DNA of 64,000 nucleotides from an uncultured Eggerthellaceae bacterium (GTDB taxonomy: Bacteria > Actinomycetota > Coriobacteriia > Coriobacteriales > Eggerthellaceae). Where the stretch lies: assembly GCA_947650915.1 (NCBI GenBank), contig CANSWY010000001.1, positions 62,001-126,000 on the forward strand, read 5' to 3'. Each line of letters begins with the position of its first letter. The first letter of the stretch is position 1. Shown here one piece after another: positions 26,581 through 41,960 of the stretch. Below the pieces are notes generated by a model that saw only the letters and a program-made list of their open reading frames with translations, was not told the DNA's origin and ran no database searches. Position numbers and translations under genes: made by a program.

Positions 26581-26709
26581 GCAGAAGGCGTTGCTCCGGA
26601 GCGGCTCTTTGATGCGGCGCTCTTCTCGGCGTGAGACGGCGCGGGGAAAACAAGGTATCTTGTCTCGGTGCAACCGATGCAGGATCTGCCACGGAGGGGA
26701 GACCGGACA

Positions 26710-28920
26710 ATGAATGCATACGGATCCGATGTGCACCAGATCGTGGCCATGAATCTGACAGGAGACGTTCTCAGCAACAAGAAGGAATGGGAGGGCATTG
26801 CTTCTGCGCGCCGAGATTTCATCGAACGGGGCGTCCTTCCCGGTGTTGAAGGATGGTCGAGGCCCGAGGTGGTGGATTCGTGGGCGCGTTGCCTGGAGAT
26901 GGGGATCGATCCTGAAGCATCCAGGTTGGCGAATCCGCTCTCTGATGCTGATTTCGCAGAGGTCATGGACATCTACGCCGATCTCATAGAAGCAGCACGC
27001 CCGCTCATCGGCATCATCGACGATCTGGGCCTTTCCAATGACTACATCTTCGAATTGGTGAGCCGCAACGGGGTCACTGTCTTGAAGACGGGCAACATGG
27101 ACCTGCATCAGATCGTGGCCAAGCGGAGCTCCATGAACGAGTCCACTATGGGCACCAATGCGCACACGCTGTGCATGAAATACGCCAGACCCATGCAGCT
27201 GGTGGGAGTGGAGCATTTCTGCAGCGCGCTGCATGGCATCGCAGCCATCGCGGCGCCGGTGTTCGACAAGAACGGCTTGGTGGTGGCTTCCATGCTCCTG
27301 ACCCAACCGTTGCCCGATGAGCCGTGGACCCCTGAATACCGGAAGCTGCTCTCGCATGCACTGGGGTTCATCACCTCCATCTGTTCCGCACTGGAGCACC
27401 AGATGAGCTTCCAGGACAGCCTCATCCGCATCGCGGATGTGGATGAGCGCTTGGAGGCAGCAGAAGCCTCTGGTAAGCGTGCGCGCCATGTGCTGGACAT
27501 CGCCATCGGTTCGAGCGATGATCCCATCCTCGTGCTGGATTCCTCAGGTCTCATCCAGCATGCCAGCCCTGAAGCGGTGCATCTGCTGCGCACCACCATG
27601 GCGGATGTGGTGGGACGCCCGGTCGATTCCGTTCTGGGCCTTGAGTGGCCTGAAGCGTTCGAGCCGCTGATGAAGAGCCAGGGGGTAGAGGTGACGACGA
27701 AAGCGGCCTCGAAGGTGCTGGGCGTGCGCGGCAATGCGGTCCGCAACGGTGCCGGGGAGGCGCTGGACGGTTTCGTGGCGCGCATCTCGGAGGTGCAAGA
27801 GCCCAAGGCTTCGTCATCCGGGCGGTCGGGGGAAGTTGCTACCATCACGTTCGACGACATCCTGGGCACCAGCCTGGCCATCCGTGAAACCGTGTCCTTG
27901 GCGCATCGTTACGCCATGACAGCGGAGAACGTCCTCATCATCGGCGAAAGCGGTACGGGCAAGGAATACTTTGCGCAAGCCATCCATAATGCTTCCCGTC
28001 CTGCAGGCCCTTTCATGTCGGTCAACTGCGCCGCCATCCCGCCGCGGCTCATTGAAAGCGAGCTGTTCGGATATGAGAGCGGCGCGTTCACGGGGGCCGA
28101 CCGTGCAGGGAAGCCCGGCAAGATAGAGTTGGCCCAAGGCGGCACGCTCTTTTTGGACGAGATAGGGGACATGCCGCTTGAGCTGCAAGCCACGCTTTTG
28201 CGTGTGCTGGAGAACAAGAGCGTGATGCGCTTGGGCGGCAAGTCGTATCGCAAGGTTGATTTCCGCGTAGTGGCTGCCACCAACAGGAGCCTGGCCCGGA
28301 TGGTGGAGGAAGGGGCGTTCCGCGAGGATCTGCTGTACCGCCTCTCCATCCTGACCGTCAACATCCCGCCCTTGCGCATGCGTACGGGGGACACGATGTT
28401 CTTCGCCTATTACTATCTGAACGAATGCCGCCGCAAGGCGCACGAAGGGCCCGTGAAGTTCAAGCCAGAGGTGGAGCGCCTCTTGAGCGAGTTCCCCTGG
28501 CCGGGCAATGTGCGCCAGATCAAGAACGCTATCTATTCGGCATTCTATGCAGCGGTGGGCGAGGAGATAGGCACTGCCGATCTGCCGCAGTATCTGCGCG
28601 ATGGCAACAGTGCCCCGTTCGCGGATTTCAAGGGGCTGTCCTACGGTGCGAAGTACACTCCGGAGGGCGTGAAGATCGAAGAACGGGGCGTCTTGAACGA
28701 TGAGCCTGTTCCTGAGCAGACGCTCTCCCAAGGAAACGCCGTGGAGAAGCCGGGCGCTTTGCGCATCCCTGAAGAGATGCTGCGCATGGATGCGGTGGAG
28801 GAATCCGCCATCCGTCTGGCCCTCACCTATGCGCAGGGCAATGTGGCGAAAGCCGCGGAGATCTTGCAGATCAGTAAAGCCACGCTCTATCGGAAGATCA
28901 AGGAATACAAACTGAAATAG
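26710..28920 (+). CDS. Sigma-54-dependent activator, AcoR-like (GAF-PAS-AAA+-Fis HTH)
   Basis: A 736-aa enhancer-binding protein. The N-terminal sensor (residues about 30-240) resembles the GAF-type region of AcoR/DhaR activators, then comes a PAS-like segment (about 260-350). The AAA+ domain has Walker A GESGTGKE (412-419), the sigma-54 contact loop GAFTGA (458-463) and Walker B TLFLDEIGDMP. A Fis-type helix-turn-helix (NVAKAAEILQISKATLYRKIKEYKLK) ends it. No phosphoreceiver is present, so a small molecule probably signals through GAF/PAS. The ATG at 26710 follows GGAGGGGAG. It lies just before the molybdoenzyme operon, its probable target. Confidence 0.93.
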   Translation: MNAYGSDVHQIVAMNLTGDVLSNKKEWEGIASARRDFIERGVLPGVEGWSRPEVVDSWARCLEMGIDPEASRLANPLSDADFAEVMDIYADLIEAARPLIGIIDDLGLSNDYIFELVSRNGVTVLKTGNMDLHQIVAKRSSMNESTMGTNAHTLCMKYARPMQLVGVEHFCSALHGIAAIAAPVFDKNGLVVASMLLTQPLPDEPWTPEYRKLLSHALGFITSICSALEHQMSFQDSLIRIADVDERLEAAEASGKRARHVLDIAIGSSDDPILVLDSSGLIQHASPEAVHLLRTTMADVVGRPVDSVLGLEWPEAFEPLMKSQGVEVTTKAASKVLGVRGNAVRNGAGEALDGFVARISEVQEPKASSSGRSGEVATITFDDILGTSLAIRETVSLAHRYAMTAENVLIIGESGTGKEYFAQAIHNASRPAGPFMSVNCAAIPPRLIESELFGYESGAFTGADRAGKPGKIELAQGGTLFLDEIGDMPLELQATLLRVLENKSVMRLGGKSYRKVDFRVVAATNRSLARMVEEGAFREDLLYRLSILTVNIPPLRMRTGDTMFFAYYYLNECRRKAHEGPVKFKPEVERLLSEFPWPGNVRQIKNAIYSAFYAAVGEEIGTADLPQYLRDGNSAPFADFKGLSYGAKYTPEGVKIEERGVLNDEPVPEQTLSQGNAVEKPGALRIPEEMLRMDAVEESAIRLALTYAQGNVAKAAEILQISKATLYRKIKEYKLK

Positions 28921-28975
28921 CCCGTCTGTATGTACGAAAGGGATGCCCCAAATCGCACAGAGCGAAAGGCTGTCC

Positions 28976-29075
28976 GCATGTGCAGAAGGGACGTCCCAAA
29001 TTGCACATAGGAATAGATGACGCGCACGCAAGCGGTCGTCCTATGTGCAATTTGGAACGTCCCTTCTGCACATGC
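28976..29075. repeat. GGGACGTCCC-core compound inverted repeat, copy 2
   Basis: Arms of 37 bp (28976-29012 and 29039-29075) are inverted copies with a single mismatch around a 26-bp loop. As in copy 1 the left arm has GGGACGTCCC and the right arm GGAACGTCCC. A degenerate piece (28936-28960) precedes it. It lies between the activator's stop codon and the sigma-54-like site of the next operon, a place where it could insulate or terminate. Confidence 0.88.
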
Positions 29076-29220
29076 CTGGGCAGCTTCGATGCAAAATGAA
29101 ACGCGTTCGATCGTTTGCTTCGCATTATGAGAACGCTTCTGGCCATGCAGTTCGCAGGCCTTCAACGAAAAGCCCAGAACAGATGCGGTTTCCGAACGCC
29201 CTTCCAACGTGATGCCGAAT

Positions 29221-29236
29221 TGGCACGCTTCTTTCA
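29221..29236 (+). promoter_or_regulatory. Sigma-54-like promoter site 2 (molybdoenzyme operon)
   Basis: TGGCACGCTTCTTTCA differs from site 1 at a single base and shares the downstream ACTCATGG. It keeps the -24 consensus and has TTTCA at -12. The predicted start is near 29247, about 79 bp before the first gene. The leader then contains a small hairpin (GCGGATA 29253-29259 with TATCCGC 29267-29273). The 405-bp gap 28921-29325 contains only this, the repeat and no other gene. Confidence 0.6.
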
Positions 29237-29325
29237 ACTCATGGAGACAAGCGCGGATACCAGCCTTATCCGCAACTGTTTTCGAGTCCGGCAGAAGGCG
29301 TCGGACCCCATGAGAGGAGGAAGCA

Positions 29326-29499
29326 ATGACGGAGAAGGAGAGGAAGGATCTGGATAGGGATTTCCAGCAGAATCGCAAGGACGCGAAGATGGCTGATCCA
29401 GAGAAGAACAAGCAGGCCTGGCAGCAAAAAGCCCAGGACGCCTCTGGTCGCGACTGGACGAAGCCGTTCCGCCCGACGTTGAAAGACGGAGAGGTCTAG
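29326..29499 (+). CDS. Small charged protein leading the molybdoenzyme operon
   Basis: A 57-aa protein, rich in Lys, Asp, Gln and Arg, with no Cys and no hydrophobic stretch (start TEKERKDLDRDFQQNRKD, end PFRPTLKDGEV). GAGGAGG lies directly upstream of the ATG. It is the first gene after the sigma-54-like promoter and is 39 bp before the molybdoenzyme gene. I do not recognise it. It could be a chaperone or a small subunit for the enzyme; nothing in the sequence decides. Confidence 0.75.
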   Translation: MTEKERKDLDRDFQQNRKDAKMADPEKNKQAWQQKAQDASGRDWTKPFRPTLKDGEV

Positions 29500-29538: not shown

Positions 29539-31893
29539 ATGGTTACGAACGCTAAGCTTGGAAACGAACTGGAAGGCGTCAATAAAGACGTCTACAAAAC
29601 AGACTGGCAATGGCAGGAAGGCGAATACACGGTCACCCGCACCAACATGTGGACCGCGCCGGGTTGCCACAACGGCTGTTCTGTCCTGTACTACACCAAG
29701 GACAACAAGGTGGAGAAGATCGAAGGCGACCCGCTGTCTCCGTACAACCAGGGCCGTCTTTGCATGCGCTGCCTTGACGTGGTGGAGACGTTCTACCATC
29801 CCGACCGCCTGAAGTACCCGCTGAAGCGCGTGGGTGAGCGCGGCGAGAACAAGTGGGAGCGCATCACGTGGGACGAGGCCTACGATGACATCGTGGAGCA
29901 CGTGCGCGAGATTCAGGAGAAGTGGGGCCCTGAGGCCATCGTCTCCATGCAGGGCACCGGCCGCAACATCTGTTGGCAGACCCCGTATTTGAGCTATGCA
30001 GGCTTCGGCAGCCCGAACTTCGTGCTGGGCTTCCTCTCAGGCGACGCATGCTATCTGCCCCGCACCACCATCGGCCACTGCTTCATGGGCGATTTCTTCG
30101 TGGCTGACATGTCCCAGCACCTTGAGAAGCGCTATGACGATCCGGAGTACGTGTATCCGGAATACATCCTGAATGTGGGCAACAACGCGCTGGTCTCCAA
30201 CGGTGACGGCTTCTTTGGCCACTGGATCGTGGATGTCATGAAGCAAGGCGGCACGAAGCTGATCGTGCTTGACCCCTCTTGCACGTGGCTCGCCTCCAAG
30301 GCTGAGTACTGGCTGCAGGTCCGTCCCGGCACGGATGCGGCAGTTGTCATCGCCATGCTGAACACCATCATCGAAGAGGATCTCTACGATCACGACTTCG
30401 TCGAGAACTGGTGCTATGGCTTCGAAGAGCTGGCAGAGCGCTGCAAGGAATACCCGGCTGAGCTTGCTGCCGAGATCTCTGGCGTTGATGCTGAGCTCAT
30501 CCGCCAGGCTGCCCGCGCCTTCGCTGGTGCGAACCCTGGCACCATCCAGTGGGGCCTCAAGGTGGACCAGACGGTCTGCGGCATCCCGCTGGCCCAGGCG
30601 CTCCTGTCCATGGGTGCCATCTGTGGCGACATCGACGTTCCTGGCGGCATGATGATCCCGCGTTGCGCCTACGATATCCCGGATTCCTACGGCTGCGGCA
30701 TGTGGAACCTCTCTGACGAGATGCTGGGCAAGATGCTGGGCGTTGAGACCTCTCCGTTGCACGCGCTCGGCTTTGACCCCACGGCCAACGGCGACACGGT
30801 CCTCCAGGCCATCGAGACGGATGAGCCCTATCCCATCAAGATGCTGTTCATCCAGTCCACCAACCCCATCGCCAACATGGCTGCTGACGCTCCGCGCGTG
30901 TATCGTGCCATGAAGAGCGTGTACTACAACGTGGTGGTGGATGTCTTCATGACCCCTACGGCCATTGCGTGCGCTGACATCGTCCTTCCTTGCGGCATGT
31001 CCTCTGAGCGCAACTCCGCTCGTGTGTGGTGGTGGCCGCTGCGCTCCATCGTCAAGGTGTCCGACTACGAAGAGGCGAAGTCCGATGAGCAGATCATCCT
31101 TGAGCTGGGCAAGCGCCTCAATCCCAGGCTCTTCCCGTGGGAGAACGATACCGAGCTCATGACCTGGTGGATCCAGTCCGGCAACCGCTTCCATGCTGGT
31201 TGGCCGCACAAGACCGACGAGACGTTCCCGGAGCTGTGCGAGAAGGTCATCGACTGGCCGGACGACTGGGCTTACCGCAAGTACGAGCTGGGCTGGCTGC
31301 GCGACGACGGACAGCCGGGCTTCAACACCAACACCGGCAAGTGTGAGCTGTTCAACACGCTGTTCGACGCCTGGGGCTTCGATCCGATGCCGTACTACGA
31401 AGAGCCGCCTGAGAGCCCCGTCTCCACGCCGGATCTGTTCAAGGAATACCCGTTCGTGCTGACCACCGGTGCTCGCACCTGGGAGTACTTCCACTCCGAG
31501 GAGCGCATGGTGCCGCGTCTGCGCGAATCCCATCCCGATCCGCTGACCGATCTGCATCCGGACACCGCTGCCAGCATCGGCGTGTGCGAAGGCGACTGGA
31601 TCTGGGTGGAGAACATGCGCGGCAAGTGCAAGCAGCGCGTGCGCATCAACCCCTCGCTCAAGCCGGACACCGTCCGCTCCGAGCACGGCTGGTGGTTCCC
31701 GGAGACCGAAGGCGCTGAACCGAACCTCTTCGGTGTGTTCGACTCCAACATCAACAACCTCACCGTGCAGGGCGTCACCGGTCCTACGCTCTATGGTGCG
31801 CCTTACGCGAACCAGATCTGCAAGATTTATCCGGTCACGAAGGAGAACGACTGCTCGCCGAGCGACATCGTGACTCGTCAGGGAGGATTCTAA
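29539..31893 (+). CDS. Molybdopterin (Mo/W-bisPGD) oxidoreductase, acetylene hydratase/catechol dehydroxylase-like
   Basis: A 784-aa catalytic subunit of the DMSO reductase superfamily. The N-terminal Fe-S region has Cys43, Cys47, Cys75 and Cys78 (PGCHNGC, GRLCMRC), followed by the usual HPDRLKYPLKR and WDEAYDDI. Cys171 in GDACYLPR is the best candidate metal ligand. The middle part has the cofactor-binding DPSCTWLASKA and GTDAAVVIAMLN; the C-terminal domain has LTTGARTWEYFHSEERM. There is no twin-arginine signal, so it is probably cytoplasmic. Context (ferredoxin subunit, MFS transporters) fits enzymes that dehydroxylate catechols or transform other aromatics. The substrate is unknown. Confidence 0.9.
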   Translation: MVTNAKLGNELEGVNKDVYKTDWQWQEGEYTVTRTNMWTAPGCHNGCSVLYYTKDNKVEKIEGDPLSPYNQGRLCMRCLDVVETFYHPDRLKYPLKRVGERGENKWERITWDEAYDDIVEHVREIQEKWGPEAIVSMQGTGRNICWQTPYLSYAGFGSPNFVLGFLSGDACYLPRTTIGHCFMGDFFVADMSQHLEKRYDDPEYVYPEYILNVGNNALVSNGDGFFGHWIVDVMKQGGTKLIVLDPSCTWLASKAEYWLQVRPGTDAAVVIAMLNTIIEEDLYDHDFVENWCYGFEELAERCKEYPAELAAEISGVDAELIRQAARAFAGANPGTIQWGLKVDQTVCGIPLAQALLSMGAICGDIDVPGGMMIPRCAYDIPDSYGCGMWNLSDEMLGKMLGVETSPLHALGFDPTANGDTVLQAIETDEPYPIKMLFIQSTNPIANMAADAPRVYRAMKSVYYNVVVDVFMTPTAIACADIVLPCGMSSERNSARVWWWPLRSIVKVSDYEEAKSDEQIILELGKRLNPRLFPWENDTELMTWWIQSGNRFHAGWPHKTDETFPELCEKVIDWPDDWAYRKYELGWLRDDGQPGFNTNTGKCELFNTLFDAWGFDPMPYYEEPPESPVSTPDLFKEYPFVLTTGARTWEYFHSEERMVPRLRESHPDPLTDLHPDTAASIGVCEGDWIWVENMRGKCKQRVRINPSLKPDTVRSEHGWWFPETEGAEPNLFGVFDSNINNLTVQGVTGPTLYGAPYANQICKIYPVTKENDCSPSDIVTRQGGF

Positions 31894-31894
31894 G

Positions 31895-32239
31895 ATGGCT
31901 GAGAAGTACGGACTCTTCATCGATTACACCTGGTGCACCGCCTGCCGCTCCTGCGTTATGGCCTGCAAGGTGGAGCATGGCTGGAAGGCGGGCGAAGCGA
32001 ACGGGATCGTCCTGTTCGAAGATGGCCCGACCATGATGGCGAACGGCAAGTACGAGTACAACAACCTGCCCGTGTTCACGTCCCAGTGCGACCTGTGCGC
32101 TGACCGCACGGCCATGGGGAAGCTCCCCACCTGCGTGCACCACTGCCAGTCCGCGTGCATGAAGTACGGCACGGTGGATGAGCTGGCAGAGCTCGTCAAG
32201 GAAACGCCCCGCTCATGGCTGTACGTGCCTGAGCAGTAA
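31895..32239 (+). CDS. Ferredoxin-like electron-transfer subunit, two [4Fe-4S] clusters
   Basis: A 114-aa protein related to the Fe-S subunits of molybdopterin enzymes but about half the size of DmsB. Cys14, 17, 20 and 24 form CX2CX2CX3C; Cys65, 68, 80 and 84 (with Cys88 nearby) form the second set. It should pass electrons to the large subunit just upstream. GGGAGG precedes the ATG, 1 bp after the previous stop. There is no membrane anchor gene, so the partner donor is soluble or unknown. Confidence 0.92.
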   Translation: MAEKYGLFIDYTWCTACRSCVMACKVEHGWKAGEANGIVLFEDGPTMMANGKYEYNNLPVFTSQCDLCADRTAMGKLPTCVHHCQSACMKYGTVDELAELVKETPRSWLYVPEQ

Positions 32240-32642: not shown

Positions 32643-32978
32643 ATGCCGAATTGCAGAACATGCAGTCCTTGGTGTCAGCGTTGCCATAAGAAGGCGGAGT
32701 TCAAGTTTCCCGTCGAGTGCCCCGATTGCGGTTGGTACAACCCCTACGAGCGCGAAGCGTGCGCGAAATGCGGGCGGAAGCTCGAACACGATGACACCAA
32801 GGCGGTCACGCATCTGAATGCTGAAGTCAAGAAAGCATGCTTTTTCTGCACTCCCTTCGAGAAGCCGCTGTGCGGCGATTGTTTGAAAGAGGGACGCACC
32901 AAGATCTGCCCCTCATGCAATGGTTACGTCCTAGGGAGCAGGAAGACATGCAGGAAATGCGGATACGAATTCGAGTGA
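32643..32978 (+). CDS. Multi-zinc-ribbon protein with 16 cysteines
   Basis: A 111-aa protein with eight CXXC or CX3C pairs: Cys4/7, 11/14, 26/29, 40/43, 66/69, 77/80, 89/92 and 103/106. These could make up to four zinc ribbons or rubredoxin-like knuckles. GAAAGGAAG precedes the ATG. It is not a recognised family to me. Together with the smaller zinc-ribbon gene 65 bp upstream it is the distinctive extra content of this operon. Confidence 0.78.
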   Translation: MPNCRTCSPWCQRCHKKAEFKFPVECPDCGWYNPYEREACAKCGRKLEHDDTKAVTHLNAEVKKACFFCTPFEKPLCGDCLKEGRTKICPSCNGYVLGSRKTCRKCGYEFE

Positions 32979-33100
32979 TGACCCGCATTTCCCTTTGACT
33001 TGAGCCTACCTTGATCCATAAGGCAGGCTGCGGCGGACATTCTACAAGAAGCCCTAGATCTCCTACAAAGAACACTTGTGGTCGAGAAGGGACATGGGAT

Positions 33101-34384
33101 ATGTCTAACAAGCAAAAAACGACAACCACTGCATGGTTGATCGTGATCATCGCGTTTCTGGGCGGTCTGGCCTTGGCCAGTGCGCAGAACAAGGTTCCAC
33201 CTGTCATCGACGTGGTCATGTTGGACTTCGGTATCGGCGAGACCGATGCGGGCTGGCTGACCTCAGTATTCACCATCATGGGCATGATCACTGCCCTGCC
33301 AGCATCTTGGCTTCTCCAGCGCTTGGGTGCCAAGAAGATCGGCGTCATATCCTTGGCGTGCTGCGCCATCGGTTGCGCCATCGGCGCATTCTGCACTGAA
33401 TTCTGGCAGCTGCTCCTCACCCGCATCATCGAAGGTGTGGGTGTGGGCATGATCGCCGTGGTCGGGCCTGCCATCATCGCCATGTGGTTCCCCGCTGAGA
33501 AGCGCGGCTTCCCCATGGGCGTGTGGGGCTCTTGGATGATGGCTTCCCAGACGTTGTTGTTCTTCTTCGGCGGCGGCATCGCCGCGAACTGGGGATGGCA
33601 GGGCGTGTGGTGGTTCGTGTTCATCCTCTGCGTCATCGCTCTGGTGCTGTACCAGTGGAAGGTAAAAGAGCCGGATGGGGATATGCCGAACTATGCAGAA
33701 GGCGAAGATCCTGAGGAGTTCCACTTCGGAGAGGGCTTCAAGTCCGGCTCCACCTGGGTGCTCACGGCAGCCGGTTTGATCTTCTGCTTCTGCTGCTTCG
33801 GGTTCGCCACCTACATATCGCTCTATTGGGCGCAGGAGTTCTTCGGCGGTGACATGAACCAGTCCAACTGGTGGGTCTCCGTCATGTATGCGCTGGAGGT
33901 GCCCATTGTCATCCTGTTGGGTTGGGTGATGAACCATATCAAGCTGGGGAACAGGCGCTTCATGGGTGTCATCGGCTTCGCGCTATATACCTTCATCCTG
34001 TTCTTCTGCTTCAGGATGGATGATCCGGCGCTCCTGCTCCCGTTCATCATCATCTACCCGTTCCTGGAAGGCGCCATCCCCACGGCCTACTGGACGCTGG
34101 TGGCGTCAACTGCCAAGAAGCCTGAGTATGCGGGCACGTCCATCGGCATCCTGAACGTGGGCCTGAACATCGGCACGCTCCTCGGGCCTCCGATCACCGG
34201 GTTCTTCATTGAGAATTACGGATGGGCTGCTGCCACCGTGCCGCTGGCCATCGCCTCCATCGTGGGCGCCATCCTCTTCTTCTTCGTGAAGACGTACTAC
34301 CACGGCCATTCTGAAGGGGTCATGACGAAGGAAGAGCAGGAGATCATGGCGAAGCAGCAGGCTGAGCTCGCTGCGAAGAGCTGA
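33101..34384 (+). CDS. MFS transporter 1 of the molybdoenzyme locus
   Basis: A 427-aa major facilitator with twelve predicted helices. The MFS loop motif is degenerate (QRLGAKKIGVIS), followed by RIIEGVGVGMIAVVGPAIIAMWFPAEKRGFPMGVW, which resembles NarK/OFA-type carriers of organic or inorganic anions. I chose the ATG at 33101, after GAAGGG, rather than 33011. It probably imports the enzyme's substrate or exports its product. It is homologous over its length to the next transporter. Confidence 0.9.
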   Translation: MSNKQKTTTTAWLIVIIAFLGGLALASAQNKVPPVIDVVMLDFGIGETDAGWLTSVFTIMGMITALPASWLLQRLGAKKIGVISLACCAIGCAIGAFCTEFWQLLLTRIIEGVGVGMIAVVGPAIIAMWFPAEKRGFPMGVWGSWMMASQTLLFFFGGGIAANWGWQGVWWFVFILCVIALVLYQWKVKEPDGDMPNYAEGEDPEEFHFGEGFKSGSTWVLTAAGLIFCFCCFGFATYISLYWAQEFFGGDMNQSNWWVSVMYALEVPIVILLGWVMNHIKLGNRRFMGVIGFALYTFILFFCFRMDDPALLLPFIIIYPFLEGAIPTAYWTLVASTAKKPEYAGTSIGILNVGLNIGTLLGPPITGFFIENYGWAAATVPLAIASIVGAILFFFVKTYYHGHSEGVMTKEEQEIMAKQQAELAAKS

Positions 34385-34533
34385 CCTGCTGAGAAGGAAT
34401 GCAAGAGAGGGCTGGATCGGGCAGAGGAAGCGAGCGCGCCTCCTCTGCCTGCGTTCAGGCCCCTGAGACATCGAGCCTGCTGGATGCATCCGTGGGATGC
34501 GGACGGAGACTGGCTCGGATGCGAGGTTGTGAG

Positions 34534-35760
34534 ATGAACACGAAGAAGGCCTGGGTGGTGGCGCTGGCCACCATCTTCGCAGGCATCGCGCTGGCGCTGG
34601 TGCAGAACAAGGTGGCGCCATGCATGCTGGTGCTCCAGGAGGCGCTGAACATAGATATGGCTACCGTAGGGTGGCTGAGCTCAGTGTTCTCATTGGTGGG
34701 CATCGTGATCGCCATCCCCGCGGCGGTCATCTTGAACAAGATCGGTCCGAAGAAGGGCGGCATCATCGCGCTGGCTTGCGCGATCGGCGGGTCTTTCTTG
34801 GGATTGGCCGTGGAGAACACGGCGGTCTTGATGATCAGCCGCGTGATCGAGGGCATGGGCGTTGGCCTCATGTCGGTCATCGGGCCTGCGGTCATCGCCA
34901 TGTGGTTCCCGGAGACGAAGCGCGGGCTTCCCATGAGCATTTGGGCGGTGTACCAGATGTGCGCGCAAGCGGTCATGTTCTTCTTGGGCGGCGTGCTCAC
35001 GATGAACTTCGGCTGGCAGGGCATGTGGTGGTTCGGCGCCATCGCCTGCATCGTGGCGCTCATCTTCTACGTGGCATGCGTGAAGAGTCCCCGCCCGGAA
35101 GAGAGCCATGCGGATGTGGAGAGCGAAGAGGTCTCCATCGCGGAAGGCGTGAAATCCCCGTTCCCTTGGTTGATGTCCTTGGTCACCATGTGCTTCTGCA
35201 TCGCGTGCTTCGGTTTCGTGAACTGGGTGGCCACCTGCTGGACGGACATCTACGGCTGGAGCGTGGATGAATCGAACAACTGGGTAGCCTGCTTCTCTCT
35301 GGGCGCCGTGGTGGCAGCGCTGGTGTGGGGTTCCATCCTGAACAAGGTGCGCAACCAGAAGGTGTTCGGTTCTCTCATGCTGGTCCTCTATGGCGTGGTG
35401 GTGCTCTGGGGCATGGTGTTCGGCAACCCGATGCTCATCGTGCCATTCGTGATCGTGTATGCGTTCGCGGATGCAGGGTTCCCCTGCGTGCTCTGGACCA
35501 TGACGGCGCTCACGGTGAAGAAGCCGGAGCTGGCGGGCGTGGCCCTTGGCGTGGTGTCCATCGGCTTTAATCTGGGCATCCTCTTAGGGCCGCCGCTCAT
35601 CGGCGCGGTGGCGCAATCCTTCGGCTGGACGGCTGCGGCGTTCACTATGTGCGGCTTCTGCGTCCTGGGCGCGGTGCTGCTCATGCCGCTGAAGCTCTAT
35701 TCGCAGGAACAGGCCGTTCAGGCCAAAGAATCCTGTGACGTCATAGAGAACGCGGCTTGA
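34534..35760 (+). CDS. MFS transporter 2 of the molybdoenzyme locus
   Basis: A 408-aa twelve-helix major facilitator, clearly a paralogue of the previous one (shared blocks: QNKV, IEGMGVGLMSVIGPAVIAMWFPETKRGLPMS, NFGWQGMWWF). I chose the ATG at 34534, where the first helix begins (KKAWVVALATIFAGIALALVQNKV); the frame is open to 34399. A pair of paralogous carriers suggests an antiporter-like division of labour or two related substrates. Its stop overlaps the TTG start of the LRR gene (TTGA). Confidence 0.9.
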   Translation: MNTKKAWVVALATIFAGIALALVQNKVAPCMLVLQEALNIDMATVGWLSSVFSLVGIVIAIPAAVILNKIGPKKGGIIALACAIGGSFLGLAVENTAVLMISRVIEGMGVGLMSVIGPAVIAMWFPETKRGLPMSIWAVYQMCAQAVMFFLGGVLTMNFGWQGMWWFGAIACIVALIFYVACVKSPRPEESHADVESEEVSIAEGVKSPFPWLMSLVTMCFCIACFGFVNWVATCWTDIYGWSVDESNNWVACFSLGAVVAALVWGSILNKVRNQKVFGSLMLVLYGVVVLWGMVFGNPMLIVPFVIVYAFADAGFPCVLWTMTALTVKKPELAGVALGVVSIGFNLGILLGPPLIGAVAQSFGWTAAAFTMCGFCVLGAVLLMPLKLYSQEQAVQAKESCDVIENAA

Positions 35761-37724
35761 TATCGCAGAGGAAAAGACTGGAAGACGCTGGAGCGGCAGG
35801 GCGTGCACGGGTCCTGCCCTTCGGCATCGTGATGCGGGATCTGAAGGAGAGGAGCGTTCAGGTGCACCTGCCAACAGGGCAGAAGGCTGCTGGAGAGCGC
35901 ACGGACGGTGCGATCCCTGGCGTGCGCCTGAGCCCGGTGGAGCTTCGGAACCTGGCGCTGATAGATGATCCTGCCCTTGTGGGGATGCAAAGAGGAGGTG
36001 TCTCTGGACGTGCGTCTGCTGGTGCGCCGCTAGAGGTATCTCCTGTGTGCATCGAAGAGGATCCCACCGTGCTCGGCCGCGTCGTGGGGGATGAGGTGCT
36101 CATAGGGCCTGAGATCGCTTCCATCAAGGCGGGGCAGGATGGTCCTGTGGCTCATGTTCGCGTGACCGTGAGCCCGGACAACCCTCATTTCTCCACCGAT
36201 GGCTTCGCCATCTACACCAAGGACGGTTCAAAGCTCGTATGCATGGTGGTGCCCTGTGAGAGCTATCGCGTCATGGATGGATGCCGCCGCATCGGCGCGC
36301 GGGCGTTCGACGGGGCGGAGAAGCTGTGCGCGGTGGAGCTTCCCTGCGGGCTTGAGAGCATCGGGCGATTGGCGTTCGCGAAATCCGGGATCAGCTCCAT
36401 CCGCCTTCCGGATTCAGTCAAGGTGGTGGATGAAAAGGCCTTCTACGGGTGCAAGGAGCTGGTGAGCTGCCGCATGGGCCAAGGTGTGCAGGAGATCGGC
36501 GCGCTGGCGTTCGCGCTCTCCGCTTTGGAGCGCATCGTGCTGCCGGCCTCCGTGCGCTCACTTTCATCTGATGCCTTCGATAAGACGCCAGCCATGCGCG
36601 CAGCCCACGCTGAGGCCATCCAGGTGTCAGCGGACAATGAGCGCTACGTCCTGGATGCGGAAGGCGGCTTGTACGAAGAGGGAAGGTTCACGGGCCTCCT
36701 GAGCTGCGTTGCGGAGTACACGGTGGCAGCGGGATGCGCGGAGGTGCTGCCGCAGGCGTGCTGCCGGAACCTCTATCTGCGCGCCGTGACGCTGCCGAGC
36801 GGTCTTGTGAGCGTCGGCGATGACGCGTTCCGGGGCTGCAAGAACCTCCAGCACATGAGCATTCCTGAAACCCTCACACGGATCGGTGCCCACGCGTTCA
36901 TGGACACGGCTCTTCGTTCGCTGCGCCTTCCCGCTGCGCTGGATGATCTAGGCGAAGGTGCGTTGTTGGTGGGCGGCGAGAATTCGGCGCGGATGCGGCG
37001 GCCGCTCCAGCACGTTGAGGTGGATGCGCGCAATGAACGCTTCTATCTGGAGAGCGGGCTGCTCTGCGAGAGGGGCGCGGGTGACGGGGGTGCTGACAAG
37101 GTGCTCTTGTACGTGGGGCCGGAGGCGCGCGTGACCATTCCGGATGCGGTGAACCGGATCGCGCCCTATGCGTTCATGGGCGCGCACGGGGTGGAGCACC
37201 TCATCATGCACGGCCATATGCACAGCATCTGCCAAGGGGCGCTCTCTGTAGCACGCTCCATCCCGCAGGTGACCGTGGAGGTGGACGGGGTTTGGAGGTC
37301 GCTGCCCATCCCCTCGCTCTCGCCACGGTTCCGCACTTATACGGACCTGTTCACCACTGAAGACGGGCGCACCGTCTTCGTCTTCCCATATTATGACGCT
37401 TGGGTCACGAATGCGTGCGATGTCCATGAGTTCGCGCCGGCCGCGGTGGCCCGCCTGCGCGATCCGGTCTGGATGGATGAGGAGGTGCGCGAGCTGTACC
37501 GGGGGATCTTGCGGCGCAAGCAGGCAATGGTGTGCGCATGCTTTGCGGATGCGGGAGACTTGGAGGCTTTGGAAGATCTCAGGAACTGGGGCGTTCTGGA
37601 GGATGCAGCTCTGGAGGATGCGTTGGCAGCTGCTGTCCAGGAAGGCGAAGGGCAAGCTGTGGGGTGCCTGTTGGAGCTCAAGCGCCGTGCAGGCGCGGGC
37701 ACTGGACTGGATCTGAGCATCTGA
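35757..37724 (+). CDS. Intracellular BspA-type leucine-rich repeat protein
   Basis: A protein of up to 655 aa with LRR_5 (BspA-like) repeats at about residues 160-500, e.g. CRRIGARAFDGAEKLCAVELP, LESIGRLAFAKSGISSIRLP, LTRIGAHAFMDTALRSLRLP and VNRIAPYAFMGAHGVEHLIM. There is no signal peptide or anchor, unlike most BspA proteins, so it is likely cytoplasmic. The C-terminal 120 residues are helical. The start is uncertain: TTG at 35757 overlaps the MFS stop; GTG/ATG at 35829/35832 are alternatives. Its stop overlaps the VWA gene start (TGATG), so the two are coupled. Confidence 0.82.
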   Translation: MISQRKRLEDAGAAGRARVLPFGIVMRDLKERSVQVHLPTGQKAAGERTDGAIPGVRLSPVELRNLALIDDPALVGMQRGGVSGRASAGAPLEVSPVCIEEDPTVLGRVVGDEVLIGPEIASIKAGQDGPVAHVRVTVSPDNPHFSTDGFAIYTKDGSKLVCMVVPCESYRVMDGCRRIGARAFDGAEKLCAVELPCGLESIGRLAFAKSGISSIRLPDSVKVVDEKAFYGCKELVSCRMGQGVQEIGALAFALSALERIVLPASVRSLSSDAFDKTPAMRAAHAEAIQVSADNERYVLDAEGGLYEEGRFTGLLSCVAEYTVAAGCAEVLPQACCRNLYLRAVTLPSGLVSVGDDAFRGCKNLQHMSIPETLTRIGAHAFMDTALRSLRLPAALDDLGEGALLVGGENSARMRRPLQHVEVDARNERFYLESGLLCERGAGDGGADKVLLYVGPEARVTIPDAVNRIAPYAFMGAHGVEHLIMHGHMHSICQGALSVARSIPQVTVEVDGVWRSLPIPSLSPRFRTYTDLFTTEDGRTVFVFPYYDAWVTNACDVHEFAPAAVARLRDPVWMDEEVRELYRGILRRKQAMVCACFADAGDLEALEDLRNWGVLEDAALEDALAAAVQEGEGQAVGCLLELKRRAGAGTGLDLSI

Positions 37725-39379
37725 TGGCGCGCATCTTGGACAACACGCCCATCTTGGAAGGCGACGTGGCGCTCGCTCGGCATGAGGAGCGCCAGAGGCT
37801 CGGTCTGGGCCACGCTTCCCAAAGAGGCGATGGCGGTGATGTTGTCGACCTCATCACCGAAGAGCGCACGCAGAAGAAGCTGGAGCGATATGAGGCGTGC
37901 CGCCCTGTGGCGCTTGAGATCCTGGAAGAGGCGCGGCGCGCGCTGGCGGTGCGGTTCCGTTTCCTGGATGCAGCGCTTTGGCGGATGCCCCTTGAGCCCC
38001 GGTTCGATCTGTATGGCATCGCCAGTGATGGCCGCGCGTTCTATTTCGACCCGGTGTACGTGGTGGACCGGTTCAAGCTCTCCTTCAACGAAGTGGTGCG
38101 CGATGTCATCCACTGCCTGTTCCACTGCATCTTCCGTCATCCGTTCATGTTGTATTCGGTGCTGCGCCAGCCATGGGATGTGGCGTGCGACATCGCCATC
38201 GAGGCCATGATCTTGGATCTGGTGGGGGAGGCGTACCCGGTCAACATGGATCGGCGCGCGAAGGAGGCGCTGAAGGTGCTGAGCGCGCATGTGGGCGGTG
38301 CCATCACGGCGGAGCGGCTGTACTGGTTCTTCGGCAACGAGGGCAACAAGACCGATCTGAAGTCCTTGGCACCCATGTTCTATCACGATTCCCACAGCCT
38401 CTGGTATGGGGATGAGGATGAGCGCATGGACCCTGACGGTTCGGGGGCGGGGTGCCCTGAAGACGATGAGGGCGCAGCGGAGGGGCCAGGGCAGCAGTCC
38501 TTGGAATCCGAAGCGCTGGATGACATCGTGTCTGCGGAGCCGGACGCCTCTGATGCGAAAGACGGAGCGGAGGCACCTGTGGGCGGCGCATCGGATGAAG
38601 CAACGCGCCAAGAGCAAGAGGAGCTCTCTCAAGAATGGGAGGACATCAGCCAGCGCATGCAGATGGACTTGGAGGCCCGTCTGGCGAAGCGGGGCGAGGG
38701 CGTTGGCAACCTGATCTGCCAGCTGCGCGCGCTCAACCGCGAGGTGGGGGACTATGCGGAGTTCCTGCGCCGGTTCGCCACGTTGCATGAGACACTGCGC
38801 GTGAACGATGACGAGTTCGACTACATCTATTACACCTTCGGTCTTGACCGGTATGGGAACATGCCGCTGATAGAGCCTTTGGAATACAAGGAAGACAGGC
38901 GCGTGCATGACTTCGCCATCGCCATAGACACCTCTGAATCCTGTTCGGGCGAGGTGGTGCAGGCGTTCATGGAGAAGACGTACAACATCCTGCGGTCATC
39001 CGAGAGCTTCCATGACCGCGTGAACATCCACCTCATCCAATGCGATGCAGCCGTGCAGGAGGACACGAAGATCACCTCTCTCAGCCAGCTTGAGCGCCAT
39101 CTGGAGAAGATGGAGCTCAAAGGGTTCGGCGGGACGGATTTCAGGCCCGTGTTCGAATACGTGGACGCGCTCATCGCAAAGGGTGAATTCACTGACCTGC
39201 GCGGTCTGATCTATTTCACGGATGGCGAAGGGGTCTTCCCGAAAAAGCCCCCTGCCTACGACGCAGCGTTCATCTTCTTGGACGACGGATTCACGGATCC
39301 GGAGGTGCCCCCGTGGGCCATGAAGATGCTGCTGGATGCGAGGGGGCTGAACGATGGACGGCCTGCGGACAAAGGCTGA
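37724..39379 (+). CDS. DUF2201-type VWA protein with degenerate metallopeptidase motif
   Basis: A 551-aa protein. The N-terminal half resembles the DUF2201 putative metallopeptidase domain, but the expected HEXXH reads HCLFHCIFRH (His130, His134, His139), lacking the catalytic Glu. An acidic low-complexity linker (about 235-300) follows. The C-terminal VWA-like domain has a full MIDAS: DTSES (Asp402), GGTD and YFTDGEG. Such proteins pair with MoxR ATPases. The ATG overlaps the LRR stop codon. The stop codon lies inside the first unit of the palindromic repeat array. Confidence 0.85.
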   Translation: MARILDNTPILEGDVALARHEERQRLGLGHASQRGDGGDVVDLITEERTQKKLERYEACRPVALEILEEARRALAVRFRFLDAALWRMPLEPRFDLYGIASDGRAFYFDPVYVVDRFKLSFNEVVRDVIHCLFHCIFRHPFMLYSVLRQPWDVACDIAIEAMILDLVGEAYPVNMDRRAKEALKVLSAHVGGAITAERLYWFFGNEGNKTDLKSLAPMFYHDSHSLWYGDEDERMDPDGSGAGCPEDDEGAAEGPGQQSLESEALDDIVSAEPDASDAKDGAEAPVGGASDEATRQEQEELSQEWEDISQRMQMDLEARLAKRGEGVGNLICQLRALNREVGDYAEFLRRFATLHETLRVNDDEFDYIYYTFGLDRYGNMPLIEPLEYKEDRRVHDFAIAIDTSESCSGEVVQAFMEKTYNILRSSESFHDRVNIHLIQCDAAVQEDTKITSLSQLERHLEKMELKGFGGTDFRPVFEYVDALIAKGEFTDLRGLIYFTDGEGVFPKKPPAYDAAFIFLDDGFTDPEVPPWAMKMLLDARGLNDGRPADKG

Positions 39380-39525
39380 AGCCTTTGCTACGGCGGCTGC
39401 GTACGGAACGGTCTTCGTAGCGCAGGCTTCAGCCTGCGAAGGGAGGAGAGATGGAACGCTCCGTAGCGCAGGCTTTAGCCTGCGATCATTGGGGATAAGG
39501 ACAAAGGCTGAAGCCTTTGCTACGG
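39367..39525. repeat. Array of four AGGCTGAAGCCT palindromic repeats
   Basis: Copies at 39367-39393 and 39499-39525 are identical 27-mers (GGACAAAGGCTGAAGCCTTTGC and on to TACGG). Two related copies in inverse orientation lie at 39416-39440 and 39461-39487 (CGTAGCGCAGGCTTCAGCCTG; the second has a T for C). Each unit is a short palindrome beside a CGTAGC end. They are extragenic except that the first supplies the last codons and stop of the VWA gene. Spacers are 22, 20 and 11 bp, unlike CRISPR. Confidence 0.85.
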
Positions 39526-39577
39526 AAGGGAGAGGAAGAACCGTGGTGCGGGAGGATGAACGGATGAGGAGGGGCTC

Positions 39578-41089
39578 ATGGACATACGGCAAGCGAAACA
39601 GCAGGTGAAGGACACGGTGGAGGCGTATCTGGCGTGCGACGCGGACGGTGAGCCGCTGCTGGCGCGTTCGCAGCAGCGCCCGGTGTTCTTGGTGGGCGCG
39701 CCGGGCATCGGCAAGACGGCCATCATGGCCCAGATCGCCGACGAGCTGGATCTGGGGCTGGTGTCCTATTCCATGACGCACCACACCCGTCAGAGCGCGC
39801 TGGGTCTGCCTTTCATCGCCCATCAGGAATATGCAGGTCTGGAATACGATGCATCTGAATACACCATGTCAGAGATCATCGATTCCGTGTACCAGTGCAT
39901 GCGCGACACCGGGCGCGAGCGCGGCATCCTGTTCCTGGATGAGATCAACTGCGTGTCCGAGACGCTCTACCCTTCCATGTTGCAGTTCCTGCAATTCAAG
40001 ACGTTCGGGCGCCATGAGGTGCCCCAGGGCTGGATCGTGGTCACGGCGGGGAACCCTCCTGAGTACAACCGCAGCGTCCATGAGTTCGATATCGTGACGC
40101 TGGACCGCGTGAAGCGGATCTGCGTGGAACCTGATCTTGCGGCATGGAAGGCGTATGCGGCGGACAAGGGCGTGCATCCGGCGGTGCTCACGTTCTTGGA
40201 GGCGAAGAAGGACCGCTTCTATTCTGTCCGCACCACCCTTGACGGCAAGGAGTTCGTGACCGCGCGCGGCTGGGACGACCTGTCCGACATCATGCGCGCC
40301 TACGAGCGCTTGGGCAAGGAGGTGGACGAGGCGCTCATCTCCCACTACGTGCAGGATCCGAAGATCGCCGGGGAGTTCGCTGCCTACTATGAGCTGTTCC
40401 AGAAGTACCGGGATGACTACCGCATCGAAGCCATCCTTGAGGGGAAGACGCCAACGGATGTGGTGGAGCGCGCTCAAGAGGCGGAATTCGATGAGCGCCT
40501 TTCACTCATCGGGCTCATGCTGGACGCGCTGGAACCGGAGTTCCGCGCCATCATGGAGCGCACGGACGTCATCCTGGGCGTGCGGGATGCACTGCGCGAT
40601 GTGAAGGTGAGGGCGCTGGATGGTGGCCGTGACGCCGCGTCCGTGCCCGATGCACTGGCGGATGCCATCGCGCAGAGGGTCCAGGCGCGCGAGGCGCTGA
40701 TCGTCTCCGGTGCTCATGCGGCCAAGCGCCGCATCGCGCGTGCGGAGCTTGATGTGCTGGAGCGTTTTGGACGCGAATTGGGTGCAGGCAGCGGAGATGC
40801 GCAGGCGGACATGGAGGCGCTGGAAGGCATGTTCGCGCAGGAGGCGGCTGTGGACGGCGCGGTGGACGCACAAGAAGCGCGCCTCGGTGCCGCGTTCGAT
40901 TTTTTGGCAGCGGCCTTCGGAGACGCCCAGGAGATGCTCATCTTCGTGACCGAGCTCACCCAGCGCACGCCCTCTGCGCGCTATCTGGCGCAGTTCGGCA
41001 GCGCATCGTATTTCAGCCACAACCAGCCCATGATCCTGTCGGACAGTCATCGGCGCTTGCGCAGCTTGGTGGAAGAACTCGAACTGTAG
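39578..41089 (+). CDS. MoxR-like AAA+ ATPase
   Basis: A 503-aa ATPase. Walker A is GAPGIGKT (residues 40-47), Walker B GILFLDEIN (116-124), and sensor 1 is the Asn in VVTAGNPPEYN. The order of these motifs and the SALGLPFI insert are as in MoxR-type ATPases. The C-terminal 200 residues are helical and Ala-rich. GAGGAGGGG precedes the ATG. It is the expected motor for the VWA protein upstream; the repeat array separates the two genes. Confidence 0.88.
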   Translation: MDIRQAKQQVKDTVEAYLACDADGEPLLARSQQRPVFLVGAPGIGKTAIMAQIADELDLGLVSYSMTHHTRQSALGLPFIAHQEYAGLEYDASEYTMSEIIDSVYQCMRDTGRERGILFLDEINCVSETLYPSMLQFLQFKTFGRHEVPQGWIVVTAGNPPEYNRSVHEFDIVTLDRVKRICVEPDLAAWKAYAADKGVHPAVLTFLEAKKDRFYSVRTTLDGKEFVTARGWDDLSDIMRAYERLGKEVDEALISHYVQDPKIAGEFAAYYELFQKYRDDYRIEAILEGKTPTDVVERAQEAEFDERLSLIGLMLDALEPEFRAIMERTDVILGVRDALRDVKVRALDGGRDAASVPDALADAIAQRVQAREALIVSGAHAAKRRIARAELDVLERFGRELGAGSGDAQADMEALEGMFAQEAAVDGAVDAQEARLGAAFDFLAAAFGDAQEMLIFVTELTQRTPSARYLAQFGSASYFSHNQPMILSDSHRRLRSLVEELEL

Positions 41090-41120
41090 ATCTTGGCAGC
41101 AATGCAGAAAGGAGACGAAC

Positions 41121-41960
41121 ATGGCGACCTATACGCTCTCAAGCTATGATCCGGTGGAGGTGAAGCTCCCCAAGCCGCAGGTGCCTCCCAGCTTGGTGGA
41201 TGCCCAGATAGAAAAGCTCATGGAGCCGTTCTCGGAGTTCCACGAAGTGGCGGAGGAGCGCGGCGTGCTGCCAGGCGATCACCTGGTGGTCACCACGCGC
41301 GATGCGGCTCTTGACGGGAATCCGGCGAACAACTTCGTCATGCAGCATTCCGTTTACCACGTGGGCGCAGGCGAGATGCCGAAGGCCTTCGATGATGAGC
41401 TCATCGGCGTGAAGCCGGGGCAGACCAAGCAGGTGGAAGCCAAGATCCGCATGCCGCTGGCGCAGGATGGAGCGGCGTCCGTGCTCACGATGGAAGTTGA
41501 CGTGGAGAAGATCTTGCGCGCGCAGGCGCCCGAGCTGACGGATGCGTTCATCGCCGAGCACTTCGCGCCCGCTACGAACCTGGAGGAGTTCCGCCAAGGC
41601 GTGGCGGCGCAGTTCGGGTTGCCGGACATGGCGAAGGATGACCCGCATTTCCCGGACATCGTCTTGTCTGAACTGGCGAAACGGTTGGTGGAAGATCCCG
41701 ACCCGGCGGACAGGATGGAGGGCATGCCCGATGATGCGCTGCGCATCATGTGCGCCACCGATGCGTTGGCTGACCATCTGGACATCCAACTTGACCGGGA
41801 ACAGGTCATCGCCCAGATGCCCGATGATGACCCTGCGCAGCGCGAACAGATCTATCAGCAGCTGGTGGACCAGGGCAAAGAGGATGAAGCGGCTGTGTTC
41901 GCGCGCCGCGAGGCGGCGCTCTCGTGGCTGGTGAACAATTCCAGCGTTTCCTACGAGTGA
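41121..41960 (+). CDS. Trigger-factor-like FKBP/peptidyl-prolyl isomerase protein
   Basis: A 279-aa protein resembling the PPIase and C-terminal substrate-binding parts of trigger factor (PGDHLVVTTRDAALDG, GEMPKAFDDELIGVKPGQTKQVEAKIRMP, LTDAFIAEHFAPATNLEEFRQGV). The ribosome-binding N-domain with its GFRxGK motif is missing, so it is not the housekeeping Tig. AAAGGAGA precedes the ATG. It follows the AAA+ gene by 31 bp, in what looks like one operon, and is followed by a strong hairpin. Confidence 0.82.
   Translation: MATYTLSSYDPVEVKLPKPQVPPSLVDAQIEKLMEPFSEFHEVAEERGVLPGDHLVVTTRDAALDGNPANNFVMQHSVYHVGAGEMPKAFDDELIGVKPGQTKQVEAKIRMPLAQDGAASVLTMEVDVEKILRAQAPELTDAFIAEHFAPATNLEEFRQGVAAQFGLPDMAKDDPHFPDIVLSELAKRLVEDPDPADRMEGMPDDALRIMCATDALADHLDIQLDREQVIAQMPDDDPAQREQIYQQLVDQGKEDEAAVFARREAALSWLVNNSSVSYE

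Follow-up and report, generated by a model that had tools for sequence, protein, structure and literature searches.

A four-gene cassette with VWA and MoxR proteins beside an acetylene-hydratase-like molybdoenzyme in Coriobacteriales: a candidate assembly machine

Four genes in a 64,000-nucleotide (nt) stretch of contig CANSWY010000001.1 from an uncultured Eggerthellaceae bacterium (the whole stretch is referred to here as the window) are read in one direction and encode a BspA-type leucine-rich-repeat (LRR) protein, a DUF2201 protein with a von Willebrand factor A (VWA) domain, a MoxR-type AAA+ ATPase and a trigger-factor-like (TF-like) chaperone. They follow an operon for a molybdoenzyme of the acetylene-hydratase/catechol-dehydroxylase family (Table 1; coordinates are positions in the window, L-numbers denote the loci compared and G-numbers the genomes, G000 being the window's own). 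A sequence-only reading had proposed these genes as one remodelling cassette, possibly serving the molybdoenzyme, and gene calls and domain matches bear out all four of them at the coordinates that it gave. It had also read the junctions as tight. This is correct for LRR and VWA, which overlap by 1 base, and for the TF-like gene, which starts 31 nt after MoxR, but not for VWA and MoxR, which are separated by 198 repeat-filled nt in the window compared with 9 nt in L033 and 60–61 nt in L043, L044, L045 and L050; the extra DNA carries a palindromic repeat that fills the gap. The cassette begins, as had been noticed, on the stop codon of the second transporter gene of the operon, through a TTGA overlap that is also kept in L033 (where the LRR protein is 64% identical), with the qualification that the LRR start itself is uncertain, its TTG codon being weak and GTG at 35829 or ATG at 35832 being alternatives.

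Table 1. Features of the molybdoenzyme operon and the adjoining cassette in the window
Feature	Coordinates	Strand	Evidence or remark
Sigma-54-dependent regulator	26668..28920	+	NCBIfam sigma-54 regulators; 42-43% identity to the L043, L044 and L050 copies
Molybdoenzyme catalytic subunit, acetylene-hydratase/catechol-dehydroxylase family	29539..31893	+	Pfam Molybdopterin 3.1e-23; PDB 2e7z 4.9e-92
Small 4Fe-4S partner subunit	31895..32239	+	Fer4_11 3.4e-06
Small zinc-ribbon-like protein of the enzyme operon	32643..32978	+	Pfam DZR 0.0039, weak and below cut-off
MFS transporter 1	33011..34384	+	MFS_1 6.7e-57
MFS transporter 2	34399..35760	+	MFS_1 1.9e-50; stop codon overlaps LRR start
BspA-type LRR protein	35757..37724	+	Pfam LRR_5 5.6e-39
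DUF2201 VWA protein	37724..39379	+	DUF2201 6e-12, DUF2201_N 8.6e-09
Intergenic stretch with repeat-element palindromes	39380..39577		~190 nt longer than the L033 counterpart
MoxR-type AAA+ ATPase	39578..41089	+	AAA_5 9.1e-07; Walker A/B
TF-like chaperone	41121..41960	+	TIGR00115 7e-21, model positions 106-264; FKBP-fold and C-terminal domain

Searches with the VWA protein covered 149 genomes of the order and 296 genomes of the phylum, plus named contigs. Matches occur in 40 of the 149 and 9 of the 296 genomes, the strong ones in the phylum sample being confined to Eggerthellaceae (7 of the 9 genomes). The 61 loci listed fall into three forms (7 A, 17 B and 37 C). In form A, to which the window belongs, LRR, VWA, MoxR and TF-like genes stand in identical order in all seven loci, and LRR–VWA–MoxR also recurs in form B, so that the four-gene set is not the rarity elsewhere that the sequence-only reading had considered. 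Form B has no TF-like fourth gene; its MoxR protein instead carries a fused C-terminal ArsM-like methyltransferase domain (Methyltransf_31, 6e-15; the best NCBIfam match is to arsenite methyltransferase, 5.1e-19, below cut-off), which rules out a first guess, made from length, that the extension is a fused TF-like domain. A separate gene for the same methyltransferase follows the TF-like gene in four form-A loci (L043, L044, L045 and L050), and contig C2 of the window's own genome carries a paralogue of form B (L042). Form C is VWA–MoxR with an LRR gene that, among 30 loci with upstream sequence, is divergent in 22, co-directional in 2 and missing in 6. Counted over loci with 2.5 kb of upstream sequence, LRR thus adjoins VWA in 6/6 form-A, 14/14 form-B and 24/30 form-C loci. 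A tree of MoxR (56 rows, with L041 left out as too short and L075 and L079 labelled form B by judgement) recovers a form-A clade (support 100/99) and a clade of A and B with three partial loci (100/100), with form C as the outgroup; support is lower for form B as a whole (78/71) and reaches 100/99 for a core of 15 rows.

The forms differ sharply in their surroundings. A molybdoenzyme lies within ~8 kb of the cassette in 15 of the 18 testable A and B loci compared with 3 of the 27 form-C loci (Fisher P = 1.4e-6); by form, the counts are 6/6 for A, 9/12 for B and 3/27 for C. These 45 loci exclude those with flanks shorter than 5 kb and no molybdoenzyme in view (L034 of form A; L036, L046, which is on the same contig as L038, L071, L073 and L080 of form B; and L035, L049, L051, L052, L053, L075, L079, L089, L090 and L091 of form C). 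Three loci with one short flank (L037, L041, counted as form B by sequence, and L065) were kept since the enzyme is visible, which favours positives; a strict count that omits them and requires at least 5 kb on both flanks gives 13/16 for A and B compared with 2/26 for C (P = 1.9e-6). L033 is positive by way of L100, the shorter L033 alone reading as negative, and L071, in which a small subunit stands at the contig edge, was not scored as positive.

Gene order is conserved along with proximity. Enzyme and cassette are co-directional in all 15 positive A and B loci, and in form A the molybdoenzyme is upstream on the same strand in each of the six flanked loci (the window, L043, L044, L045, L050 and L033 through L100). 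Form B has a common order of its own, in which the enzyme, a small subunit and two small open reading frames (ORFs) precede LRR, VWA and the MoxR–methyltransferase fusion; it recurs in L037 (where the enzyme is seen only in part), L039, L041 (truncated within MoxR), L042, L047, L048 and L082, and in L072 and L081 the enzyme is instead downstream of the cassette. Within two genomes that have both kinds of loci, G067 and G071, the A/B loci are 4.4–6.7 kb from a molybdoenzyme and the form-C loci 14.2 and 46.7 kb away. Proximity in a single genome would be weak evidence, and it is the synteny together with the form-C control that leads us to reject simple chance for forms A and B.

The enzyme in question has acetylene hydratase as its closest solved relative (2e7z, followed by 2vpw at 1e-60), which excerpts of PMC7028382 name as the closest relative of the catechol dehydroxylases. 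The same excerpts describe Gordonibacter enzymes that have MFS transporters and a small 4Fe-4S protein as neighbours, and this is the layout of the window. A small 4Fe-4S subunit follows the enzyme in the window, L043, L044, L045, L050, L100 and L096–L099. All five form-A genomes among the 149 carry an enzyme of at least 91% identity (hypergeometric P = 2e-7, ignoring kinship); in the genome of L033 the cassette-adjacent fragment of it is 95% identical, and in that of L034 it is 89–94% identical, on other contigs. Enzymes of this kind remove hydroxyl groups from plant compounds, and the window enzyme is the probable client of the cassette.

We propose that the cassette would be a machine dedicated to assembling or activating its neighbour, the acetylene-hydratase/catechol-dehydroxylase-like molybdoenzyme, and we consider this interpretation evenly poised on the comparative evidence. 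A number of observations weigh against it. Four genomes (G053, G073, G081 and G133, whose assemblies are 78–86% complete) carry an 84–85% identical enzyme on contigs that lack the cassette, and none of these genomes yields a VWA match; the enzyme contig of the L034 genome (L102) shows no adjacent cassette; three of the 12 form-B loci (L038, L074 and L077) have no nearby enzyme; and form C is mostly unlinked to molybdoenzymes. The enzyme is 91–92% identical between the window and the four other cassette-adjacent form-A enzymes, across genera, compared with 42–47% for LRR and 60–63% for VWA against four form-A relatives, and such divergence seems odd for an LRR that would read the surface of a near-constant protein. 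Finally, molybdoenzymes abound in these genomes (PF00384 matches number 69 in G071 and 85 in G067), the background chance of finding one within 10 kb is 0.31–0.35, and the loci compared are not phylogenetically independent.

The co-occurrence with molybdoenzymes that the sequence-only reading had anticipated therefore holds in part: it is found in 15/18 A and B loci, and the orthologous enzyme is present in all form-A genomes examined, but form-C loci mostly lack a nearby molybdoenzyme and the enzyme occurs in four cassette-free genomes. Because form C mostly stands alone and those four genomes are cassette-free, serving a molybdoenzyme can be a trait of the A/B branch at most, and not of the core trio, which has another life in form C, as its lack of linkage there indicates; the four genomes and the enzyme contig of the L034 genome likewise indicate that the enzyme is not always cassette-dependent. 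The same observations, with the high molybdoenzyme background, are what would be expected if LRR–VWA–MoxR were a general remodelling unit with some other client, brought near the enzyme in forms A and B through shared regulation or hitch-hiking in molybdoenzyme-rich genomes. We regard this as rather unlikely, as the order is conserved across genera, enzyme and cassette point the same way in every positive A/B locus and the linkage is confined to one clade.

Form B narrows the kinds of job that a dedicated assembly machine might have. Seven of the eight full-length form-B enzymes lack all four N-terminal cysteines and 9 of the 10 form-B small subunits lack the ferredoxin cysteines; in all eight loci in which both proteins are seen, the two states coincide, L072 retaining both sets. 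The enzyme without an Fe-S cluster site and its cluster-less ferredoxin-like partner occur together in L039, L041, L042, L047, L048, L081 and L082. These enzymes retain a cysteine aligned with a specific cysteine of acetylene hydratase, which we take to be the tungsten ligand. Fe-S insertion is thus disfavoured as the purpose of the machine, because form B keeps the machine after the cluster cysteines have gone; pterin or metal loading, folding or reactivation remain as candidate jobs. The Fe-S-less enzymes, which the earlier reading overlooked together with the methyltransferase partner and fusion, serve as a natural control by which Fe-S insertion can be told apart from other assembly steps.

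The component proteins are largely as first identified. The BspA-type LRR assignment is supported by its Pfam match, with no signal peptide evident by eye. In an alignment of 57 Coriobacteriales relatives (58 minus one duplicate contig), all five positions of the metal-ion-dependent adhesion site (MIDAS) of the VWA protein are invariant in 57/57, in keeping with the complete MIDAS that had been read, and the MoxR-like ATPase matches AAA_5, with a Walker A pattern in 57 and a Walker B pattern in 51 of 58 homologues. Structure comparison, in a search made with the VWA domain only, supports a C-terminal VWA fold at residues ~350–546; a profile search of the VWA protein against PDB sequences found no credible relative (best E value 0.089). 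The N-terminal half, overlooked in the earlier reading, is a DUF2201_N metallopeptidase-like domain. Both histidines of its HExxH motif are retained in 57/57 sequences, and the glutamate position is occupied by L, M, V, C, I, T, S or A in 57/57; a third histidine is retained in 55/57 and a downstream Asp and Glu in 56/57 each (pattern HxxxH....H). As the catalytic glutamate is lost throughout, we reject an active protease; with its histidines kept, the domain looks like a pseudo-peptidase in which a metal may still be held. Intact HExxH is present in distant relatives (L092–L094).

The fact that LRR shows the lowest conservation in the cassette also fits a quite different reading, in which the genes would be an immunity-like 'ternary' conflict system with LRR as the third, sensing component; excerpts of PMC7159879 describe such a plan of MoxR, VWA and a variable third component, and the cassette shares this three-component logic. 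This is very improbable: PADLOC gives only weak P-loop matches for the window proteins; the bpMoxR match, which concerns the beta-propeller subtype only, scores 18.8 bits, below the 27-bit Pfam cut-off; the linkage is to a metabolic operon; and a general Pfam scan of the four cassette proteins reports no effector domain. Nor does that scan report a VMAP, iSTAND or FtsH domain, no dedicated search having been made for them. The terms 'leucine-rich' and 'trigger factor' are absent from the text of PMC7159879. We also rejected a defence system more generally, PADLOC reporting nothing notable for the window proteins; a mad2 match (1.4e-09) in the form-B fusion covers the methyltransferase part.

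The alignment of the fourth protein with trigger factor starts at position 106 of the TIGR00115 model (score 74.5, below the equivalog cut-off of 180.2); the protein is matched by NCBIfam and not by a Pfam scan. Its model (pLDDT 86.9) has trigger factors as its best structural matches (7zgi and 1w26). The N-terminal ribosome-binding domain of trigger factors bears the signature GFRxGKxP, and this domain and signature are absent in all seven aligned form-A proteins. What had been called a peptidyl-prolyl isomerase (PPIase) without a ribosome-binding domain is therefore right as to the missing domain and the FKBP-like fold, but PPIase is a statement about fold: in our reading of the alignments the Escherichia coli IPGF and YH positions are not conserved, so the isomerase active site is apparently degraded and PPIase activity is doubtful. 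Close homologues occur in 5 of the 149 genomes, which are exactly the five form-A genomes (at least 419 bits, compared with 73.6 bits for the best other match), so this truncated protein travels with the trio.

Trigger-factor paralogues are also found near molybdoenzymes outside the cassette. In G067 and G071, 7 of the 9 non-cassette paralogues among the matches listed are within 6 kb of a molybdoenzyme (background ~0.23; binomial P = 8e-4; 11 matches were listed for the two genomes, and G067 has 8 matches, of which 6 were tested), and one stands near a cassette-free molybdoenzyme in the window's own genome (L103, on contig C20 of G000). In the form-B loci L039, L042 and L082, genes for a full-length trigger factor and an FKBP of the SlyD type lie downstream. 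Recruitment of such paralogues to molybdoenzymes may therefore be a wider habit in these genomes. This speaks for a molybdoenzyme as the client of the cassette; it would also suit an arrangement of two unrelated adjacent modules, in which the remodelling trio has no part in serving the molybdoenzyme and the trigger-factor paralogue, co-transcribed with it, does so alone. The fact that the form without a ribosome-binding domain is absent from the other 144 genomes at comparable score argues against this arrangement, and we consider it improbable.

For a dedicated assembly machine, the observations in hand are the gene content and order, the clades, the intact ATPase and MIDAS motifs, the loss of the peptidase glutamate and the linkage to one enzyme family. 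From them we infer a physical complex, its client, the direction of its action and a job in cofactor loading or folding. The TF-like protein, freed from the ribosome through loss of the binding domain, would hold the apo-catalytic subunit, and the LRR and pseudo-metallopeptidase/VWA proteins would form a client-docking adaptor; LRR as target recogniser, the PPIase as folding aid and a part in metallation, as first suggested, would be compatible roles. The MoxR hexamer would pull or twist the VWA adaptor, much as NorQ is reported to act on NorD, and so open the enzyme for molybdenum-pterin loading or for release from a stuck state. In form B and four form-A loci the ArsM-like methyltransferase would belong to the kit.

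The known MoxR/VWA pairs (NorQ/NorD, CoxD/CoxE, CbbQ/CbbO and RavA/ViaA) are not known to have bis-pterin molybdoenzymes among their clients. The cassette resembles them in that its MoxR AAA+ gene adjoins a gene for a VWA protein with a full MIDAS and that forms A and B are linked to a metalloenzyme operon. It differs in the DUF2201_N pseudo-peptidase of its VWA protein, the constant LRR partner, the TF-like chaperone and/or methyltransferase, the order vwa–moxR and a presumed client that is a bis-pterin molybdoenzyme. The window VWA protein matches both Pfam domains, DUF2201 and DUF2201_N, above cut-off, but unlike putative DUF2201_N metallopeptidases it has an LRR partner and, in common with all 57 Coriobacteriales sequences tested, has replaced the HExxH glutamate; the TF-like protein shares the FKBP-fold and C-terminal chaperone domain of trigger factor (tig) and differs in the missing domain and in being genomically tied to form A. 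A precedent for the proposed action is NorQD, in which the ATPase is reported to twist its VWA partner, letting metal in (excerpts of PMC13036017).

The substrates of catechol dehydroxylases in gut Coriobacteriia are catechols from the diet and the host, and the enzymes are difficult to express. According to excerpts of PMC11887054, expression of more than 20 Dadh constructs, attempted in several hosts, was unsuccessful, and accessory genes specific to the locus were essential; those of DadhD-I of Eggerthella lenta encode helicase-domain, hypothetical, TorD-like chaperone and ferredoxin proteins. The cassette likewise consists of locus-specific accessory proteins beside an acetylene-hydratase-like molybdoenzyme, but its LRR, VWA, MoxR and TF-like proteins differ from the Dadh set as described in those excerpts. 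The terms 'MoxR' and 'trigger factor' are absent from the main texts of PMC7028382, PMC12771579 and PMC11887054, and among the titles and abstracts listed in literature searches none describes a cassette of this kind; no paper was found that combines DUF2201 with MoxR or MoxR with Eggerthella. The cassette is thus a concrete candidate for missing maturation factors in the soluble branch of the catechol-dehydroxylase family and, if the proposal is true, MoxR/VWA remodelling extends to bis-pterin molybdoenzymes. More tentatively, it might represent a new class of molybdoenzyme activase, composed of an LRR/pseudo-peptidase-VWA adaptor, a MoxR ring, an off-ribosome trigger-factor chaperone and an ArsM-like methyltransferase, with acetylene-hydratase/catechol-dehydroxylase-like clients that include the Fe-S-less branch, where the machine would perhaps replace part of the usual maturation.

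Homologues of the sigma-54 regulator adjoin the cassette or enzyme in L043, L044, L045 and L050 and are found at the cassette-free loci L096, L098 and L102. In L096–L099, the enzyme, small subunit and two MFS genes (with a sigma-54 regulator in two of the loci) occur in another family, free of the cassette; the 84–85% identity of the enzyme suggests transfer or strong constraint. The palindromic repeat of the VWA–MoxR gap has 46 copies in the genome (at most 3 mismatches), compared with 0 for a reversed control. Two copies of this REP-like element stand at the VWA–MoxR junction, one of which runs into the end of the VWA gene, and another closely precedes the VWA gene in the form-B paralogue (contig C2, 46291-46314). 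A peptide-like repeat, LCAIWDVPSAH, recurs in minus-strand ORF translations at 27814-29411 of the window and also in those of L042, which may point to a second repeat dispersed in the DNA.

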